NCBI GenBank assembly: GCA_003141205.1
Contig: PLLD01000281.1
Span: 1 to 36,553, forward strand
Reading direction: 5' to 3'
Length of the DNA: 36,553 bases
Source: Gemmatimonadota bacterium
GTDB lineage: Bacteria > Gemmatimonadota > Gemmatimonadetes > Gemmatimonadales > Gemmatimonadaceae
This document shows positions 10,742-34,372 of this stretch, in pieces; position 1 is the first letter of the stretch; each line of letters starts with the position of its first letter. Under the pieces are notes generated by a model, which was given only the letters and a program-made list of their open reading frames with translations, was not told the origin of the DNA and did no database searches. The position numbers were made by a program, and so were the translations under genes.

Positions 10742-10774
10742 CACTCACCGGCCCACGGTGGGGCCGGCCGAGTG
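10742..10774 (+). promoter_or_regulatory. Leader hairpin upstream of the lysine-rich micro-gene
   Basis: CCGGCCC (10748-10754) pairs perfectly with GGGCCGG (10761-10767) across a 6-base loop, and CACTC (10742-10746) pairs with GAGTG (10770-10774) as an outer stem. It ends 27 bases before ATG 10802, ahead of a GGAG ribosome-binding site. It could control translation of the micro-gene or act as a partial terminator. Confidence 0.5.
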
Positions 10775-10801
10775 ATTCACTCCAGAGATGGAGATGTCTG
10801 C

Positions 10802-10885
10802 ATGGCGACCAAAAAGAAAGGTGCGAAGAGGAAGGTGGCGAAGAAGGCCACCAAGAAGAAGGGCGCGAAGAAGAAGAAGAGATAG
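10802..10885 (+). CDS. 27-residue lysine-rich histone-tail-like micro-protein
   Basis: ATG 10802 opens a 27-codon frame closed by TAG. Of 27 residues, 14 are Lys and 2 Arg, with none acidic. The peptide is an internal duplication: ATKKKGAK occurs at residues 2-9 and again at 16-23, joined by a short basic stretch. A GGAG lies about 8 bases before the ATG, and the gene is bracketed by a leader hairpin and a perfect 10-bp stem after the stop, which is what a real transcription unit would show. The composition resembles bacterial histone H1-like (AlpA/Hc1-type) tails, so binding to DNA or RNA is a reasonable inference. It faces the opposite way from both neighbouring operons. Confidence 0.6.
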   Translation: MATKKKGAKRKVAKKATKKKGAKKKKR

Positions 10886-10902
10886 CGCCGGCGCTTCGCT
10901 GT

Positions 10903-10931
10903 TGGGGGCCGGTGCACTCGGCCGGCCCCCA
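10903..10931 (+). terminator. Perfect 10-bp stem-loop after the micro-gene
   Basis: TGGGGGCCGG (10903-10912) and CCGGCCCCCA (10922-10931) form a perfect 10-bp stem with a 9-base loop, 17 bases after the micro-gene stop. No T tract follows, but the position and strength fit a terminator. It could serve both strands. Confidence 0.55.
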
Positions 10932-10953
10932 CGGCATCCCCGCGACTGCTGGA

Positions 10954-10989
10954 CCGCGTGCTAGGCCGCGTGTTAGGCCGCGTGTTAGG
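10954..10989. repeat. 12-bp tandem repeat (x3) with repeated in-frame stops
   Basis: Units CCGCGTGCTAGG, CCGCGTGTTAGG and CCGCGTGTTAGG are consecutive. Read on the minus strand, the 12-base period keeps frame, so the small gene ending here meets TAA, then TAA, then TAG, twelve bases apart. Confidence 0.85.
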
Positions 10990-11146
10990 CCGCGATCGAC
11001 GCGGCGCCTTCGTCCCCGGCCGGTACGGGACCCCACACATACGCCGCGATCCGCGGCACGCTCTCGAGCTCCGTCTCCAGCGAGACGATGATTCCCGCGA
11101 CGTCGGACGCCGGACCCGCGTTCGCCGACTCGGCCCGCACACTCAT
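10985..11146 (-). CDS. Possible 53-residue small protein, unknown
   Basis: ATG 11146 opens a 53-codon frame (MSVRAESANAG at the start, PRIAAYVWGPVPAGDEG near the end). The composition is ordinary for a soluble protein and includes a helix-like IIVSLETELESV. It follows the methyltransferase-like gene on the same strand after a 228-base spacer in which I see only the end of a 23-bp tandem repeat. The frame is open back to 11224 but the upstream part is Arg-rich and not convincing. Its stop lies in the 12-bp tandem repeat. I do not recognise a family. Confidence 0.4.
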   Translation of the reverse strand: MSVRAESANAGPASDVAGIIVSLETELESVPRIAAYVWGPVPAGDEGAASIAA

Positions 11147-11350: not shown

Positions 11351-11396
11351 GCTACGCGGCGCTCTATCGCGCGGCTACGCCGCGCTCTTCCGCGCG
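11351..11396. repeat. 23-bp tandem duplication at the methyltransferase stop
   Basis: Two adjacent 23-base units (11351-11373 and 11374-11396) differ at three positions, both beginning GCTACGC and ending CGCGCG. The second unit encodes the last residues and the TAG stop of the minus-strand gene; the first repeats this tail in another frame. Confidence 0.75.
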
Positions 11397-12247
11397 AGGA
11401 ACGACCGGCTCGGCGCGGCTCCGTTGGCGGCGCCCGCGGCACCCGCCTCGCGCTCGACCGTGATCTCCCACCCGTCGTACTGGGCGCGGAGCTCGGTGAC
11501 CGAGAGTGCTTCGTGGCCCGCCACGATGGTCTCGACGAGATGAACGCCGCCATCGGCCGTCGCGTTCTTGAGAAGCTGGATCACATCGCGCCGTTCCGCG
11601 GGGGAGAGGCGGGAGAGCGCCGCCGGGGTGCAGACGACGGCGTTCAGCGGCGCGTCCGGCGTCCAGTGCTCGATGTCCGTGGCGCACGGGCGCACGCGCT
11701 CCGCGAGTCCGGCGGCGCCGGCCGCGCTGAGCACGCGCTCGAGCACATCGTCCGGGACATCGATGGCGGTGACGTCACACCCATTGGCCGCGAGATACAG
11801 CGCCACGCGCTCGGCGGTATCGCCCGCCACGAGCACGTGTGACTCGCCGGTGGAGCGGAGCGCGCGCACCAGCACGCTTTCCGGGCGCAGCCCCCAGTGC
11901 TCCGGGCGGCGGTATTGCTCGAGCATGCGGAGGGAGCGGCGGCGCCACGTGCGATAGGCGGGAATGCGCAGCCGGTGCATGATGATCCGGTCGACCTCTT
12001 CCCACAGCACCAGCTCCGTCAGGACCATCTGCGATTGGTCTTCGAGCGTGCGAACGGCGTCGTCTCCGATGCTCAGCAGCGAGTTGCGCGGGATCGAATC
12101 CTTGTAATTCTCGATCTCGCGCTCGACGTAGAGCTCGTAGTCATGCTTGAGCGAACGGGTGGTTCGGGACGCCACAAATGCCAAAGGTATGACGTGAACC
12201 CGATTGCGCAAGTCATTCGGCGCAATGTTGTTAGGCGGGCTCGACAT
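11375..12247 (-). CDS. SAM-methyltransferase-like protein of unknown substrate
   Basis: A 290-residue protein. The first ~130 residues are helical and charged, with DYELYVEREIENYKDS and an Arg-rich segment around YRTWRRRSLRML. From about residue 135 a class I methyltransferase-like core follows: HVLVAGDTAERVALYLAANG matches motif I and its helix, VTAIDVP the acidic end of strand 2, and LLKNATADGGVHLVETIV the later strands. The glycine loop (AGDTAE) is poor, so SAM binding is likely but not certain. ATG 12247 overlaps the upstream CDF gene by 17 bases, which implies coupled translation at the end of the long rho operon. Confidence 0.75.
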   Translation of the reverse strand: MSSPPNNIAPNDLRNRVHVIPLAFVASRTTRSLKHDYELYVEREIENYKDSIPRNSLLSIGDDAVRTLEDQSQMVLTELVLWEEVDRIIMHRLRIPAYRTWRRRSLRMLEQYRRPEHWGLRPESVLVRALRSTGESHVLVAGDTAERVALYLAANGCDVTAIDVPDDVLERVLSAAGAAGLAERVRPCATDIEHWTPDAPLNAVVCTPAALSRLSPAERRDVIQLLKNATADGGVHLVETIVAGHEALSVTELRAQYDGWEITVEREAGAAGAANGAAPSRSFLARKSAA

Positions 12248-22001: not shown

Positions 22002-22379
22002 CTACGGCGCGCGCGCGCCCTCGGTCCGAAGGTTTCTCACCGAGTCGGCGCCGCTCGTCGCGTAGTGTGCCACGGTGATACCCACGAGCTTTCCGTCCTG
22101 GAGTCGGCTCACGGTGTGCGTCGTGACCATGACGTGCTTCCGTAGCACGCTCGGGTAGGGTCCGGCGTCCATGATGATGCTGTCACCGGCGACGACAACG
22201 CGCTCCGAGATGGGTGCCCGTTTGGGGAAGGTGATCGTCCAGCCCGCGGTGGTGGATGTCGCGTTTAGCACGAATGCGACGAGAGTACTGTCCCCCGCTG
22301 CGTTCATTGTGCGCATGTTCCACTTCCCGGCGAGGTCACCGAGCGACAGCGCGGCCGGTGGCGCCGGTGCTGCGGCAGG
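22002..22379 (-). pseudogene. Broken copy of the small lipoprotein gene at 33.8 kb
   Basis: From 22343 to the stop, the translation matches the lipoprotein at 33786-34277 almost residue for residue (GKWNMRTMNAAGDSTLV, WTITFPKRAP, VVAGDSIIMDAGPYPSVLRK, VSRLQDGKLVG). The promoter and leader are also shared, but the segment with the start codon and lipoprotein signal is gone. Leader and coding sequence are joined at the short shared word CTGCCGC, which lies 160 bases apart in the intact copy. An in-frame TAG stands upstream, and the only remaining start is ATG 22316, giving 104 residues without export signal. I call it a deletion pseudogene; a cytoplasmic short form is the alternative. Confidence 0.75.
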
Positions 22380-29231: not shown

Positions 29232-30650
29232 ATGAGATCGGCCGCACGTGTTTGGACGCTCATTTGCTGGAGCGCCTGGACTGCGGGGTCGGCGGCGGCG
29301 GCGCGCGCCCAGCTCGCCCCCATTCCAGTGGATCAGCTGGATAGCACCGGGCACCGGCACAGTCCAGCGGCCCTCGGCACGCCGGACGAGTTGCGGGTCG
29401 ATGTGGAGCTCGCGGCCGAGGACGGTCGCGATGCGATCGCGCCCGCAGACACTCTTTATCCGAAGGATGCGCTGCGCGCGGCGACGGTAGCGCGCGCGCG
29501 GGTGTGGCTCGATTCCGTGGCGGCGAAACCGGTCCATGGGCTCCAGCTCACGCCATACGGCCAGCTGGCGGTGATGGGCGAGCAGGATGCGCTCGCACAA
29601 AAGGAGCTCGCGCAGCGCCTCGCGACGCCGGGGTTGTCGGTGGAGGACCGGGCCTTTGCGTTGAGCGCTGGCGCAATCGCCTTTGCCGATCGCGAGCACC
29701 CGCAGTGGCTATCCGTAGCAGAGCGGTATCTGGCCCAGCTCGTGGCACTTGGCGTCCCGGGCGACGCGTGGCAGTTCGCCGCCCGCGACCAACTCTCGGC
29801 CGTGTACTACGAGCTTGGCCGGCGCCCCGAGGCTCTGGCTCACGCACTCGGCGCTTATGCGCTGCTGCCGGACCTTCCCTTCGAGGAGCATATCCTTGGG
29901 ATGAACGGGGGATTGTATTTGCGGGTCGCGGACATCCTTCTCGGGACGCCGGGAATGGCGGACGGACGCAGCCGAATGCACGCCGTGGATTCCTTGATCG
30001 TTGCGATGGCGCATCCCGCGCCCGACCGAATTCAGCTCGATTCGGGGACGCTATGGCCGGGGCAGCGGATGATTCGGATGGTGCAGGCGGACAGCGCGTT
30101 TGTTTTCTCGATCGGGCAGCCTGGCGCTCCGGTTAGGGGAACCACGTGGATCAACGGGACCGATGCCGGCCCGCACGACCAACGGGTTGATGACGGGCGG
30201 GTCTACCTCCTCGATTTCTTCCCACTGGGCGCGCCGTCGATCCTGGCGGGGCAACTAAGCCTGGAACGTCTGCAGCGGCGCCTGGGCCCCGCCGTCCAAG
30301 TCATCGGAATTACCAGCGCGAGCGGCCATTGGGGCGAGCAGTTCGTCGACCCCGACGTCGAGATCCAACGATGGCAGCATTTCTTCGCGCAGGATCTTCG
30401 GCTGAGCTTCCCGGTCGCCATTTGGGCCAGACCCAAGGAGCAGACGCTGCAGGGCGGCATGCTGCCTCCGCAGAATCCCACCCTCGCTGCCTATCATATG
30501 CCCGGCGGATTCGGCGTGGTCGTCGTCGACGCGCGAGGGCGCGTGCGCCGCTTCTTCACCGCCGGGCGCGACCAGGAGGATGACATCGCCCAGTTCGTGA
30601 CGCAGATCGAGGCGGAGGGGACGGGCACCGCGCCACGTTCCGCGCGATGA
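29232..30650 (+). CDS. Exported thioredoxin-fold protein lacking all redox cysteines
   Basis: A 472-residue exported protein (signal peptide ending AARAQ). The middle is helical, TPR-like (YLAQLVALGVPGDAWQFAA, LGRRPEALAHALGAYALL). The last ~170 residues read as a TlpA/AhpC-type thioredoxin fold: GRVYLLDFFPLGAPS takes the place of the usual strand plus WCxxC, VQVIGITSASG the next strand, LRLSFPVAIW another, and MPGGFGVVVVDARGRVRRFF the cis-Pro strand and hairpin. Where CxxC should be there is Leu-Gly-Ala-Pro, and I find no Cys anywhere after the signal peptide. It therefore cannot do thiol chemistry and may be a binding module. The stop overlaps the TldD-like start (ATGA). Confidence 0.75.
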   Translation: MRSAARVWTLICWSAWTAGSAAAARAQLAPIPVDQLDSTGHRHSPAALGTPDELRVDVELAAEDGRDAIAPADTLYPKDALRAATVARARVWLDSVAAKPVHGLQLTPYGQLAVMGEQDALAQKELAQRLATPGLSVEDRAFALSAGAIAFADREHPQWLSVAERYLAQLVALGVPGDAWQFAARDQLSAVYYELGRRPEALAHALGAYALLPDLPFEEHILGMNGGLYLRVADILLGTPGMADGRSRMHAVDSLIVAMAHPAPDRIQLDSGTLWPGQRMIRMVQADSAFVFSIGQPGAPVRGTTWINGTDAGPHDQRVDDGRVYLLDFFPLGAPSILAGQLSLERLQRRLGPAVQVIGITSASGHWGEQFVDPDVEIQRWQHFFAQDLRLSFPVAIWARPKEQTLQGGMLPPQNPTLAAYHMPGGFGVVVVDARGRVRRFFTAGRDQEDDIAQFVTQIEAEGTGTAPRSAR

Positions 30651-32356
30651 GACCGGTGTCGGGCGGGGTCGAAGGGGCGGCGGGCCACAGTCAGCTCTCT
30701 ACGGGGAGCGCGGCACGGGGTTGCTCGCGCCGAGCGTTCGTCTCAGCTGCGTCGCTGGCGGTGGCGGGTATTGCGATCGGAGCGCGCCGTCTGTCGGCGG
30801 CGGAGCTGGCCACCGGGATTGCCCCCAACGCGCTCATGCCGGATCCGATGGACGCGGCCGGGTTGCGGGCGCTGGCGACGGCGGCGATCGACGCCGCGCG
30901 GAGTGCCGGAGCGACATACGCCGATGTTCGAGTGGGTGCGTCCCAACGCTTCTCTCTTGGAAAGACCGGAGGGGCCCTCGGGTTCTGGGCAGCGGGGGAT
31001 GTGTTGTTCGGGTTCGGAATCCGTGCGTTGGTCGGTGGCCGATGGGGCTTCGTTCACGGCGACGTGGCAAGCGCGGATGCCGTTGCGACCGCAGCCCGCG
31101 GCGCGGCGGCGCAGGGGAAGAACGGGGCCGGCGCGACATCGGCCGGGGCGGAGTATGCCCCGGCGGGTGCCGTCACCGGTGAATGGCGCACGCCGATGGT
31201 GATCGACCCGTTCGCGGTTCCCCTGCACGAGCAGATGGCGCTGATCCAATCCTGGCTGGACACGATGGCGGGGGTGCGGGGGCTCGACAGCCGGCCGAGC
31301 GTGGCGTGGCAGAGGGAGGTGAGGGTTTTCGCATCGACGGAGGGATCGCTCATCACTCAGCACTTCGGTCGCATCGATCCGGACTTCGACATTTCGGGGA
31401 CGCGCATGATGGGGGGGGAGACTGTCGAGATAAAAGTTCCGTCGTTCTACGCGATGGCGGGCGGGTACGAGGCGATGGCGCGCGAGTCGATTCATGAAGA
31501 GATAAAGGCGACCGCGGAGGATGTTCGGCGGATGGCAAGTCTCGAGGCGCGGACCCTCGATGTCGGGCGGTATCCCGTCGTCCTGGACGGGATGACGTTT
31601 GGGTCTCTGCTTTTCAGTACTGTCGGCCGGGCACTGGAGCTCGATCGCGCTCTGGGGGAGGAGGCGGACGCGTCGGGGACGAGCTATTTGGCCCCGCCCG
31701 CTAGCATCGTTGGAACGCCGGTTTTCTCGCCCGTGCTGAATGTGAGCACCGATCGCGCACTGCCCAGCGTGACGAGCGCGAAGTGGGATGACGAAGGGGT
31801 CGAGCCGGAGACGGGCCCCGTGATTAAGGGGGGGGCGCTGGTCGATTACGAGACGTCCCGGCAGGCGGCGTCGACGTTGCAGCCGTGGTACCATCGGCAG
31901 AGCCGGCCCGTTGCGTCGCGCGGGAGGGCGGTTGCGACTGCGTGTGACCAGGCCGTGCAGATCCGTTGTGGGCATCTCACGGTAACGCACGCGAGGGCGG
32001 CGGCGACGATCGACGACCTGATTCGCGGCATCCCGCGAGGACTTCTCGTTCGCGGCGGATATCAGATATCGACCGATCAGCAGCTCACGACCGGCAATGT
32101 GGATGCGTTCGGCGGTGCGCTCATCCTTCAGGTGGAGAAGGGGCGCGTGGTTCGGCGGGTCAGGAATGTTGGACTGGAATGGAGCACACTGCCGTTCCTC
32201 AAGACCCTTGCGGCTGTCGGAGATGCGAGCACGGTGGCTCACGCGACAGGGGAGAGCTACAAGGGCGTGCCCTGGCACGGCGCGCCGTATCACACGACGG
32301 CTCCGGCTGGGCTGTTCACAGAGGTCAGGGTGGTTGAGATCGGTGGAGCGATCTAG
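30647..32356 (+). CDS. Tat-exported TldD-like protein without the HExxxH zinc site
   Basis: A 569-residue TldD/PmbA-family protein. The N-terminus has a twin-arginine signal (CSRRAFVSAASLAVAG, Arg28-Arg29), so it should be exported folded. The family fold is seen in GATYADVRVG, GRWGFVHGD, TEGSLITQHFGRIDP and YPVVLDGMTFGSLLF. Active TldD proteins have HExxxH right after this last segment; here residues 323-328 are FSTVGR, while the flanking LELDRALGEEADASGTSY is kept. Both His and the Glu are gone, by several base changes, so a sequencing slip does not explain it. Known TldD-TldE pairs cleave unfolded peptides, such as microcin B17 leader. This one is probably a pseudoenzyme. It overlaps the thioredoxin-fold gene by 4 bases. 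Confidence 0.85.
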   Translation: MRPVSGGVEGAAGHSQLSTGSAARGCSRRAFVSAASLAVAGIAIGARRLSAAELATGIAPNALMPDPMDAAGLRALATAAIDAARSAGATYADVRVGASQRFSLGKTGGALGFWAAGDVLFGFGIRALVGGRWGFVHGDVASADAVATAARGAAAQGKNGAGATSAGAEYAPAGAVTGEWRTPMVIDPFAVPLHEQMALIQSWLDTMAGVRGLDSRPSVAWQREVRVFASTEGSLITQHFGRIDPDFDISGTRMMGGETVEIKVPSFYAMAGGYEAMARESIHEEIKATAEDVRRMASLEARTLDVGRYPVVLDGMTFGSLLFSTVGRALELDRALGEEADASGTSYLAPPASIVGTPVFSPVLNVSTDRALPSVTSAKWDDEGVEPETGPVIKGGALVDYETSRQAASTLQPWYHRQSRPVASRGRAVATACDQAVQIRCGHLTVTHARAAATIDDLIRGIPRGLLVRGGYQISTDQQLTTGNVDAFGGALILQVEKGRVVRRVRNVGLEWSTLPFLKTLAAVGDASTVAHATGESYKGVPWHGAPYHTTAPAGLFTEVRVVEIGGAI

Positions 32357-32358
32357 AC

Positions 32359-33777
32359 GTGCGTCTATCTCGGACGTCCGCATCGAGCGACGAGCCGGTC
32401 CTGACGCGCGCGCAGGCGCACGAGCTCGGGCAGAAGGCGTTGGGCATGACGTCTGCGGATATCGTCAGCATGGAACTCGTTCACACGACCCGGCAGATCA
32501 CGCGCATCGCTGGCGATCGGACACGCACCGGTGATGATGGCGACGAGCTCCGCATCACCGTCACGACCGGATACGGACAGAAGGGCACCGTATCGATGGT
32601 GACGAATCAGGTCGATGACGCGATGCTCAAGGGGGCGGTCGTCCGGGCTGAGGGTGCGGCGCGCGCTCTGACCGGCCCCCTGCGCAGTCTCCTCAATATT
32701 CCTCGGGGGCCGTAGCAATACCTGCCGGTCGACCTATGGCGGGATGCGAGCGTCGCGGCGCTGCGGGAAAGGACGACGGCGGCGTCGGACATGATCGACG
32801 TGGTGCGGTCGGCGGGATTGGTGGCGGCGGGGTTCGTGGGTGTTATGGCACGGTGCGCGGCGGTCATGAATAAGGATGGACTGGAGAGTTACTATCGCGA
32901 GACGGATTGCGAATGCACGATGACCGCGCGGACGGCGGATGGCACGTCATCCGGCTGGCATGGGCAGGCCAACCGCGACTGGGGGAAGGTCGAGGCGCAC
33001 GTGGTTGCGGCGACGGCGGTCGACATCGCGCAACGGGGAGCGAACCCCAAAGCGGTCGAGCCGGGGCGTCATGTGGCGATTCTGACTCCGCTGGCGGTCG
33101 TGCAACTCGTGCATCTCATGACGTCGGCATTCGACGCGATCCAGACCGATAGCGGCGGAACCCCGTTTTCCATGCATCCGACCGGGAGCAAGCGTGGGCT
33201 GCGTGTGTTCGATCGGCGGCTGAGCATGTCGTCGGATCCGGCGGATGCGGATGGCGGGTATCGCCCGGACTTTGCCGGTGGCATGCCGGAGCCCAAGATG
33301 ACGTGGGTGGAGAACGGGGTACTCACGAATCTGGCGTACAGCCCGTGGTACGCCATGGAGACGGGTCAGCGCTATGCGGGCGACCCCTGGTCGTTCCGGA
33401 TGAGTGGGGGATCGGCATCGATCGAGAGCATGATCGCCGCGTGCCAGGAAGGGATCCTTGTCAATCGCGTCTCGAATCTCGAGCTCAGCGACGCGTCCAA
33501 GGGAACGGTGACCGGTGTCACGCGCGACGGGTGCTTCCTGGTCAGGCAGGGCAAAATCGTCCAACCGGTCAAGAACTTTCGGTTCCGCGACTCGCCCTGG
33601 TTCTTCCTCAACAACATTCTTTCTCTAGGTGTCCCGGTTCGCGCCGCGTTTGGCTACACTCCGCCCGCCGCGGACGAATCCTTTGGCGATTCGACCGCGT
33701 GGCCTCGCCGCCCCATCATCGTGCCGCCGATGATGGTCCAGGACTTCAACTTCACATCGTTAGCGGAAGCGGTGTAA
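32359..33777 (+). pseudogene. TldE/PmbA-like partner interrupted by one in-frame TAG
   Basis: GTG 32359, two bases after the TldD-like stop, opens a frame of TldE/PmbA type (LTRAQAHELGQKALGM, ITVTTGYGQKG). It meets TAG at 32713-32715 after 118 codons, in the middle of a segment that reads GP-stop-QYLPVDLW. The same frame then continues without break to 33777 with clear family sequence (GLVAAGFVGV, ANRDWGKVEAHVVAA, FAGGMPEPKMTWVENG, GTVTGVTRDGCFLV, FRDSPWFFLNN). A single C-to-T change of CAG to TAG would explain the gap. The downstream half alone could start at ATG 32791 and give 328 residues. There is no signal peptide. Read as a nonsense pseudogene; stop readthrough or sequence error are alternatives. 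Confidence 0.85.
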
Positions 33778-33785
33778 TCGGTCCT

Positions 33786-34277
33786 TTACGGCGCGCGCGT
33801 GCCTTCGGTCCGAAGACTCCTCACCGAGTCCGCGCTCTTCGTCGCATAGTGTGCGACGGTCGCGCCCGCCAGCTTGCCGTCCTGGAGACGGCTCACACTA
33901 TGCGTCGTGACCATGAGGTTCTTTCGCAGCACACTTTGGTACGGCCCGGCATCCATGACGAGGCTGTCACCCGCAACGACGACGTGTACCGGTACGGGCG
34001 CTCGTTTGGGAAAGTTGAGAGTCCAGCCCGTCGGGGTAGAGGTCGCGTTCAGCACGTAGGAGACGAGGGTGCTGTCCCCCGCCGCATTCATAGTGCGCAT
34101 GTTCCACTTGCCGGCCAGGTCGCTGAGCGACAGGGCGGGTGGGGGCGGCGGCGCCGGGGCGGCAGCGGGAGGTGCGGCGGCGACCGCGGTCGAGTCCGGG
34201 TGGGCGGCAGGTTCGGACTTCTGGCAGGCGCAAAGAAGGGTCGCGTAGCAGCAGCACGCAATCGTGAGACGGCGCAT
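33786..34277 (-). CDS. Small lipoprotein with C-terminal lipocalin-like domain, intact copy
   Basis: A 163-residue lipoprotein. ATG 34277 gives MRRLTIACCCYATLLCAC with a lipobox at LLCAC, a Pro/Ala-rich linker, then a ~110-residue domain (LSDLAGKWNMRTMNAAGD, WTLNFPKRAP, VVAGDSLVMDAGPYQSVLR, VSRLQDGKLAG). Strand-turn-strand spacing with G-x-W near its start looks like a small lipocalin-like or DUF-type barrel; the ligand is unknown. CGGAG stands before the start. A truncated relative is at 22.0-22.4 kb. It converges on the TldE-like gene with only 8 bases between the stops. Confidence 0.85.
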   Translation of the reverse strand: MRRLTIACCCYATLLCACQKSEPAAHPDSTAVAAAPPAAAPAPPPPPALSLSDLAGKWNMRTMNAAGDSTLVSYVLNATSTPTGWTLNFPKRAPVPVHVVVAGDSLVMDAGPYQSVLRKNLMVTTHSVSRLQDGKLAGATVAHYATKSADSVRSLRTEGTRAP

Positions 34278-34344
34278 CGTACACTCCGTGTTCGAGGGCG
34301 CCGCGGCGCTGGTGCGCTGCGGCAGACGGTGCCCGTGCATTCCA

Positions 34345-34372
34345 ATGATAGTCAAGACGTTAGCGGAGTCAA
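34345..34372 (-). promoter_or_regulatory. Promoter of the intact lipoprotein gene
   Basis: TTGACT (34372-34367 on the minus strand) and TATCAT (34350-34345) with a 16-base spacer, each 5 of 6 to consensus. It is conserved in the duplicated copy and lies about 70 bases before ATG 34277. Confidence 0.55.

Follow-up and report, generated by a model that had tools for sequence, protein, structure and literature searches.

A lysine-rich microprotein gene and its covarying RNA leader in Gemmatimonadaceae

Architecture of the locus

Does a frame of only 27 codons, crowded between RNA hairpins in a Gemmatimonadaceae genome (82.6% complete, 344 contigs), represent a gene, and if so, what might its product and its RNA do? 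The frame runs from an ATG at 10802 to a TAG at 10883–10885 of the window, by which we mean the whole 36,553-nt stretch analysed. The peptide, MATKKKGAKRKVAKKATKKKGAKKKKR, has 16 basic residues of 27 (14 K and 2 R) and carries ATKKKGAK twice, at residues 2–9 and 16–23; four of the eight codons differ between the two copies, every difference being synonymous. The first-pass annotation had described this locus as a Lys-rich 27-residue micro-gene with a duplicated ATKKKGAK and its own ribosome-binding site, and the features listed in Table 1 agree with it on each of these points. It had also placed the gene between two perfect hairpins, which is correct for the 11-bp stem downstream but not for the leader hairpin, where a 1 × 2 internal loop (A10747 opposite C10768–C10769) separates an outer stem of 5 bp (10742–10746/10770–10774) from an inner stem of 7 bp (10748–10754/10761–10767). 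A third hairpin of the segment (hairpin 2), which contains the Shine-Dalgarno (SD) sequence, had been overlooked, as had the longer H1-like orthologues, the covariation of the leader and a SWIB gene that shares it.

Table 1 Features of the micro-gene locus in the window
Feature	Position	Strand	Basis
Leader hairpin 1	10742..10774	+	Fold; covariance models R1/R2
Hairpin 2, CTCCA-GAGA-TGGAG, sequesters the SD	10780..10793	+	Sequence, fold, SD pairing over 93 leaders
SD, GGAG, 8 nt 5′ of the start codon	10790..10793	+	Same 8-nt spacing in 55/93 leaders
ORF, 27-aa H1-tail-like polycation	10802..10885	+	Sequence, orthologues, codon constraint, synonymous-only repeat differences
Downstream stem-loop, perfect 11 bp, GC-rich, no T-run	10903..10931	+	Such a stem in 90/95 relatives
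C0, convergent methyltransferase-like neighbour; site marker, outside the unit	11375..12247	−	In 36 fetched loci; weak Methyltransf_25 match

Segment 10735–10945 folds at −103.6 kcal/mol (z = −5.3), and none of 200 shuffled sequences is as stable. Hairpins close to start codons are common; the arrangement of hairpin and ORF seen here is more than chance, since 124 of the 148 genomes surveyed in the family carry the leader. A strong stem 3′ of the stop codon is likewise the rule among relatives (90 of 95, compared with 12.8 in shuffles) and is followed by at least three T in 63 of them. A T-run is a feature of the textbook intrinsic terminator, and the stem in the window probably marks the transcript end or acts as a 3′ stabiliser. 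Just past it (about 10952–10990) lie tandem copies of GGCCGCGTGTTA, at 10964 and 10976, preceded by a variant.

Distribution and synteny

A protein search with the 27-mer against 59 relatives returned only the query itself, because short low-complexity queries fail, and the family was therefore searched at the DNA level and then with a covariance model of the leader. The DNA search revealed short Lys-rich ORFs in surroundings like those of the window ORF. The covariance model, R1, was trained on 25 leaders (alignment A1) and extends up to the start codon; its training set holds no Lys codon and no SWIB leader, so that the sequence downstream of each match serves as an independent test. R1 places the leader, mostly in single copy and mostly at one syntenic site, in 33 of 35 genera as well as in the 124 genomes, with the proviso that the surveyed genomes are mostly drafts and absence may reflect gaps. 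The 10802–10885 frame is a genuine gene, held at one place across nearly all Gemmatimonadaceae.

C0 marks that place. Of the loci fetched from some 34 genera, 36 share it on the downstream side, and because it adjoins short and long forms of the micro-gene alike, both occupy one site. A C0 tree puts the switch between short and long forms at an estimated four or so changes, of which well-supported branches force only one. C0 matches no family above cut-off, Methyltransf_25 falling just below; nearly every genome of the order has it, and its orientation relative to the micro-gene is almost always convergent. Upstream of the micro-gene, the fetched loci often carry TldD/TldE-type genes or a zinc-binding dehydrogenase, and in several relatives a PmbA/TldD gene pair lies directly upstream. 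The window has such a pair elsewhere: a PmbA/TldD-type protease gene (PF19289) at 32359–33777 (+), one frame with a single in-frame stop near 32713, adjoins a second at 30647–32356 on its upstream side.

Sites in neighbouring groups were located by searching for C0 through the order and then reading the site. Three g5 genomes carry Lys/Arg-rich ORFs there that R1 had not reported, and the leader model therefore misses some true members. In the sister family f3, five of five genomes (L277, L278, L281, L282 and L287) have a K-rich ORF of 20–21 aa at the same site. The leader in front of it has diverged so that R1 detects it barely or not at all, yet it keeps the same plan of a hairpin with a six-base loop beginning AC, followed by the SD. 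The f2 sites examined show no ORF or leader of this plan, with the exception of a K/R-rich ORF of 62 aa near the site in L280. A pattern scan of named genomes gave mostly Gemmatimonadota, Gemmatimonas included; the leader model rejects its matches in Myxococcales, Planctomycetota, Oscillospiraceae and others. Leader-like matches outside the family (f2, f5, f10 and others) have unrelated proteins behind them and are attributed to chance, as are L065 (ExbD-like), L155 (ParB-like) and L216.

The encoded polycations

Sorted by what lies behind the leader, 115 distinct leader–ORF pairs divide into 95 H1-like polycations, 19 SWIB proteins that have a Lys-rich tail, and a single chance match. The 95 H1-like ORFs are 41% Lys and 28% Ala, with seven acidic and two aromatic residues over the whole set, a composition that has the general marks of H1-like polycations (Lys/Ala-rich, nearly free of acidic and aromatic residues, of low complexity). 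Their length ranges from 14 to 137 aa, and the frame always begins at the same place. Among 25 nearest-neighbour pairs of equal length, the first, second and third codon positions have changed 30, 20 and 91 times. Of the codons that changed, 67% did so synonymously; random single changes would give 21%, by a rough estimate that leaves transition bias out of account. An H1-like tail can thus be reduced to a bare 14–27 residues and still persist as a single-copy gene throughout a family. Genes of this kind are probably invisible to standard annotation, and the length series at one site amounts to a natural experiment on how much tail suffices.

No Pfam or NCBIfam model passes its cut-off on the 27-mer. 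HC2 (PF07382) leaves the 27-mer unmatched and matches a single long orthologue below threshold (30.3 bits, cut-off 40); the NCBIfam Hc2 and Burkholderia H1-like models reach 20–21 bits against cut-offs of 135 and 80, and the SWIB domain (PF02201) is not matched in the 27-mer. We therefore assign the locus neither to Hc2 nor to SWIB nor to a known RNA family, and treat it as a gene for an H1-like polycation whose leader is new to the libraries. A literature search for H1-like proteins in Gemmatimonadetes found nothing relevant.

Comparison with known polycations is nonetheless instructive. Chlamydial HctA (Hc1) and HctB (Hc2, PF07382) are likewise Lys/Ala-rich, and Lys-rich repeats make Hc2 variable in length (PMC2848022); both are well over 100 aa, whereas the Gemmatimonadaceae forms measure 14–48 aa in most genera. 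The small RNA IhtA represses the translation of HctA and has a second DNA-binding protein, DdbA, under its control as well (PMC4355289, PMC8343073), whereas the predicted control element of the micro-gene is a leader hairpin in cis, with no small RNA known. The parallel with Chlamydia would be one of working and not of descent. The C-terminal H1-like domains of AlgP and PhaF in Pseudomonas resemble the peptide as low-complexity, Lys/Ala-rich disordered tails that bind DNA and are linked to granules (PMC9239181); they differ in being domains of larger proteins, the Gemmatimonadaceae peptide being free-standing and without KPAA repeats.

The leader RNA

Of the 10 base pairs of hairpin 1, 8 show compensatory changes on alignment A1, made with MAFFT, and all 10 do so on A3, a broader alignment fitted to the model. 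In A3, 94.6% of the cells are paired; no shuffle reaches that value, and the signal vanishes when the partners are slid. The six-base loop reads ACCGGG in 92 of 95 H1-type leaders and 18 of 19 SWIB-type leaders. The window leader, which matches R1 at 56.5 bits, is an exception with ACGGTG. The SD nucleotides have a mean paired probability of 0.89 across 93 leaders compared with 0.61 in their shuffled counterparts (Wilcoxon p = 4e-15, the sequences being related to each other), and the SD is paired by its 5′ side in 74 of the 93 and by its 3′ side in 6.

Rfam 15 gives no match at gathering score, either for the window or for 13 related loci. The leader is a compact, covarying RNA element new to Rfam, whose function we predict from its structure. 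Like the autoregulatory leaders of bacterial ribosomal-protein genes, it combines a covarying hairpin with SD sequestration ahead of a small basic protein gene; it matches none of the Rfam families, and the protein encoded behind it is no known ribosomal protein. Two further pairings were considered, a pseudoknot between the loop GGG of hairpin 1 and the anti-SD CUCC, and loop–loop kissing through the CCGG palindrome, which the window loop breaks; the sequences vary too little to decide on either.

SWIB genes sharing the leader

In some genera the leader occurs a second time, ahead of a gene for a SWIB-domain protein (PF02201, E 5.6e-26) whose tail is Lys-rich, and several of these leaders were already found by R1 despite its training without them. 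Genera g12, g18 and g23 carry this leader type on a SWIB gene with an H1-like tail. In g18 (L314, about 1430–1480) the 8-bp stem is unrelated in sequence but presents the loop ACCGGG, followed by CTCCT-GAC-AGGAG over the SD; either duplication or convergence of the element could account for it. Of 59 family genomes, 54 contain SWIB genes, against none of 14 control genomes; most genera have them without the leader, and the window genome has one, with a Lys-rich tail and no visible leader of this type. The SWIB proteins share with the window peptide the same kind of N-terminal tail (MAAKKKAAKKPAKK...) and differ in that the window gene consists of the tail alone, without the SWIB domain.

Proposed function and alternatives

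On balance, we consider the locus to be a translationally controlled gene for an H1-like microprotein that compacts nucleic acid. Gene, orthology, coding constraint and RNA structure are direct observations, while binding of nucleic acid by the polycation, and reading of the leader loop by a trans factor or the product, are what we infer from them. By default, hairpin 2 would hide the SD and keep translation low. A factor that reads the loop of hairpin 1, be it a protein, a small RNA or, by feedback, the peptide itself, could then shift hairpin 2 and so set the dose of peptide; an invariant loop on varying stems suggests such recognition in trans. The disordered Lys/Ala peptide would bind DNA or RNA through its charge and help to condense the nucleoid, perhaps together with the SWIB protein. 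The loose constraint on length is expected if charge density, and not a fold, is what matters. Several points count against this reading: the window loop departs from ACCGGG, the SWIB gene of the window genome has no visible leader of this type, and shuffled leaders already attain considerable pairing of the SD. Ribosomal RNA or polyphosphate might also be what the polycation binds. Compaction of nucleoid or RNA, which the first-pass annotation had proposed, is the most plausible role of the peptide.

The sharing of the leader with SWIB genes suggests a chromatin-type setting. We raise more tentatively, as a prospect with somewhat less than even chances, a dedicated, RNA-controlled chromatin regulon in which one leader type, an ACCGGG-loop hairpin followed by an SD hairpin, would govern the core H1-like microprotein and, in some genera, a SWIB protein of chromatin type, and would be read either by a common trans factor or by the polycation. 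A leader tied to both kinds of gene offers a direct handle on polycation dosing in bacteria.

A polyphosphate-granule or condensate protein is an unlikely identity for the peptide, although it has a precedent in AlgP of Pseudomonas, an H1-like protein with KPAA repeats that associates with polyphosphate granules (PMC9239181), and the literature describes Gemmatimonas aurantiaca as a polyphosphate accumulator; against this, PP_kinase (PF02503) is not found in the window genome, itself 82.6% complete. Roles on polyphosphate and on DNA are compatible and need not exclude each other. It is quite unlikely that the product is a small basic protein of the ribosome, comparable to bTHX or eL41, under a ribosomal-protein-style autoregulatory leader. 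Its size and charge, its near-universal single copy in the family and the structured leader over the SD would fit such a protein, whereas a tenfold range of length, low complexity, the lack of a family match, absence from the site in most f2 genomes examined and a leader common to SWIB genes would not.

A structured non-coding RNA with an incidental ORF would explain the strongly structured, covarying leader and the shortness of the frame, and conservation of the hairpins without the frame is the outcome that the first-pass annotation had named as pointing to it. Both prove to be conserved, with the frame under protein-level selection: it is kept at 14–137 aa from the same start place, and its changes are mostly synonymous, those between the two window repeats entirely so, which makes this explanation very improbable. 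A stretch of Lys codons with a terminator-like stem behind it recalls a leader-peptide attenuator, in which ribosomes stalled on those codons would act through the stem beyond the stop to control a lysine-related gene further downstream. The first conserved gene on the downstream side converges on the micro-gene in 36 of 36 loci, leaving no operon to attenuate, and orthologues reach 137 aa, so that we give this model hardly any credence. The antimicrobial part of the first-pass interpretation falls away while the micro-gene with its ribosome-binding site and hairpins stands: a secreted or antimicrobial-like peptide would be short and cationic as this one is, but the 27-mer has no signal peptide and no hydrophobic face, and a conserved core gene that is single-copy and syntenic, has orthologues as long as 137 aa and counts no exporter or immunity gene among its conserved neighbours is almost certainly something else.

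Other features of the window

Two paralogous ORFs on the reverse strand, at 22002–22316 and 33786–34355, lie about 11 kb apart and share MRTMNAAGDSTLV...VSRLQDGKL..., one of them being apparently shorter. Between 22551 and 29215 (+), the translations of a row of genes read as an ECF-type sigma factor, an anti-sigma-like protein, and large SusC/TonB-receptor-like and SusD-like proteins, and this row appears to be a nutrient-uptake cluster.
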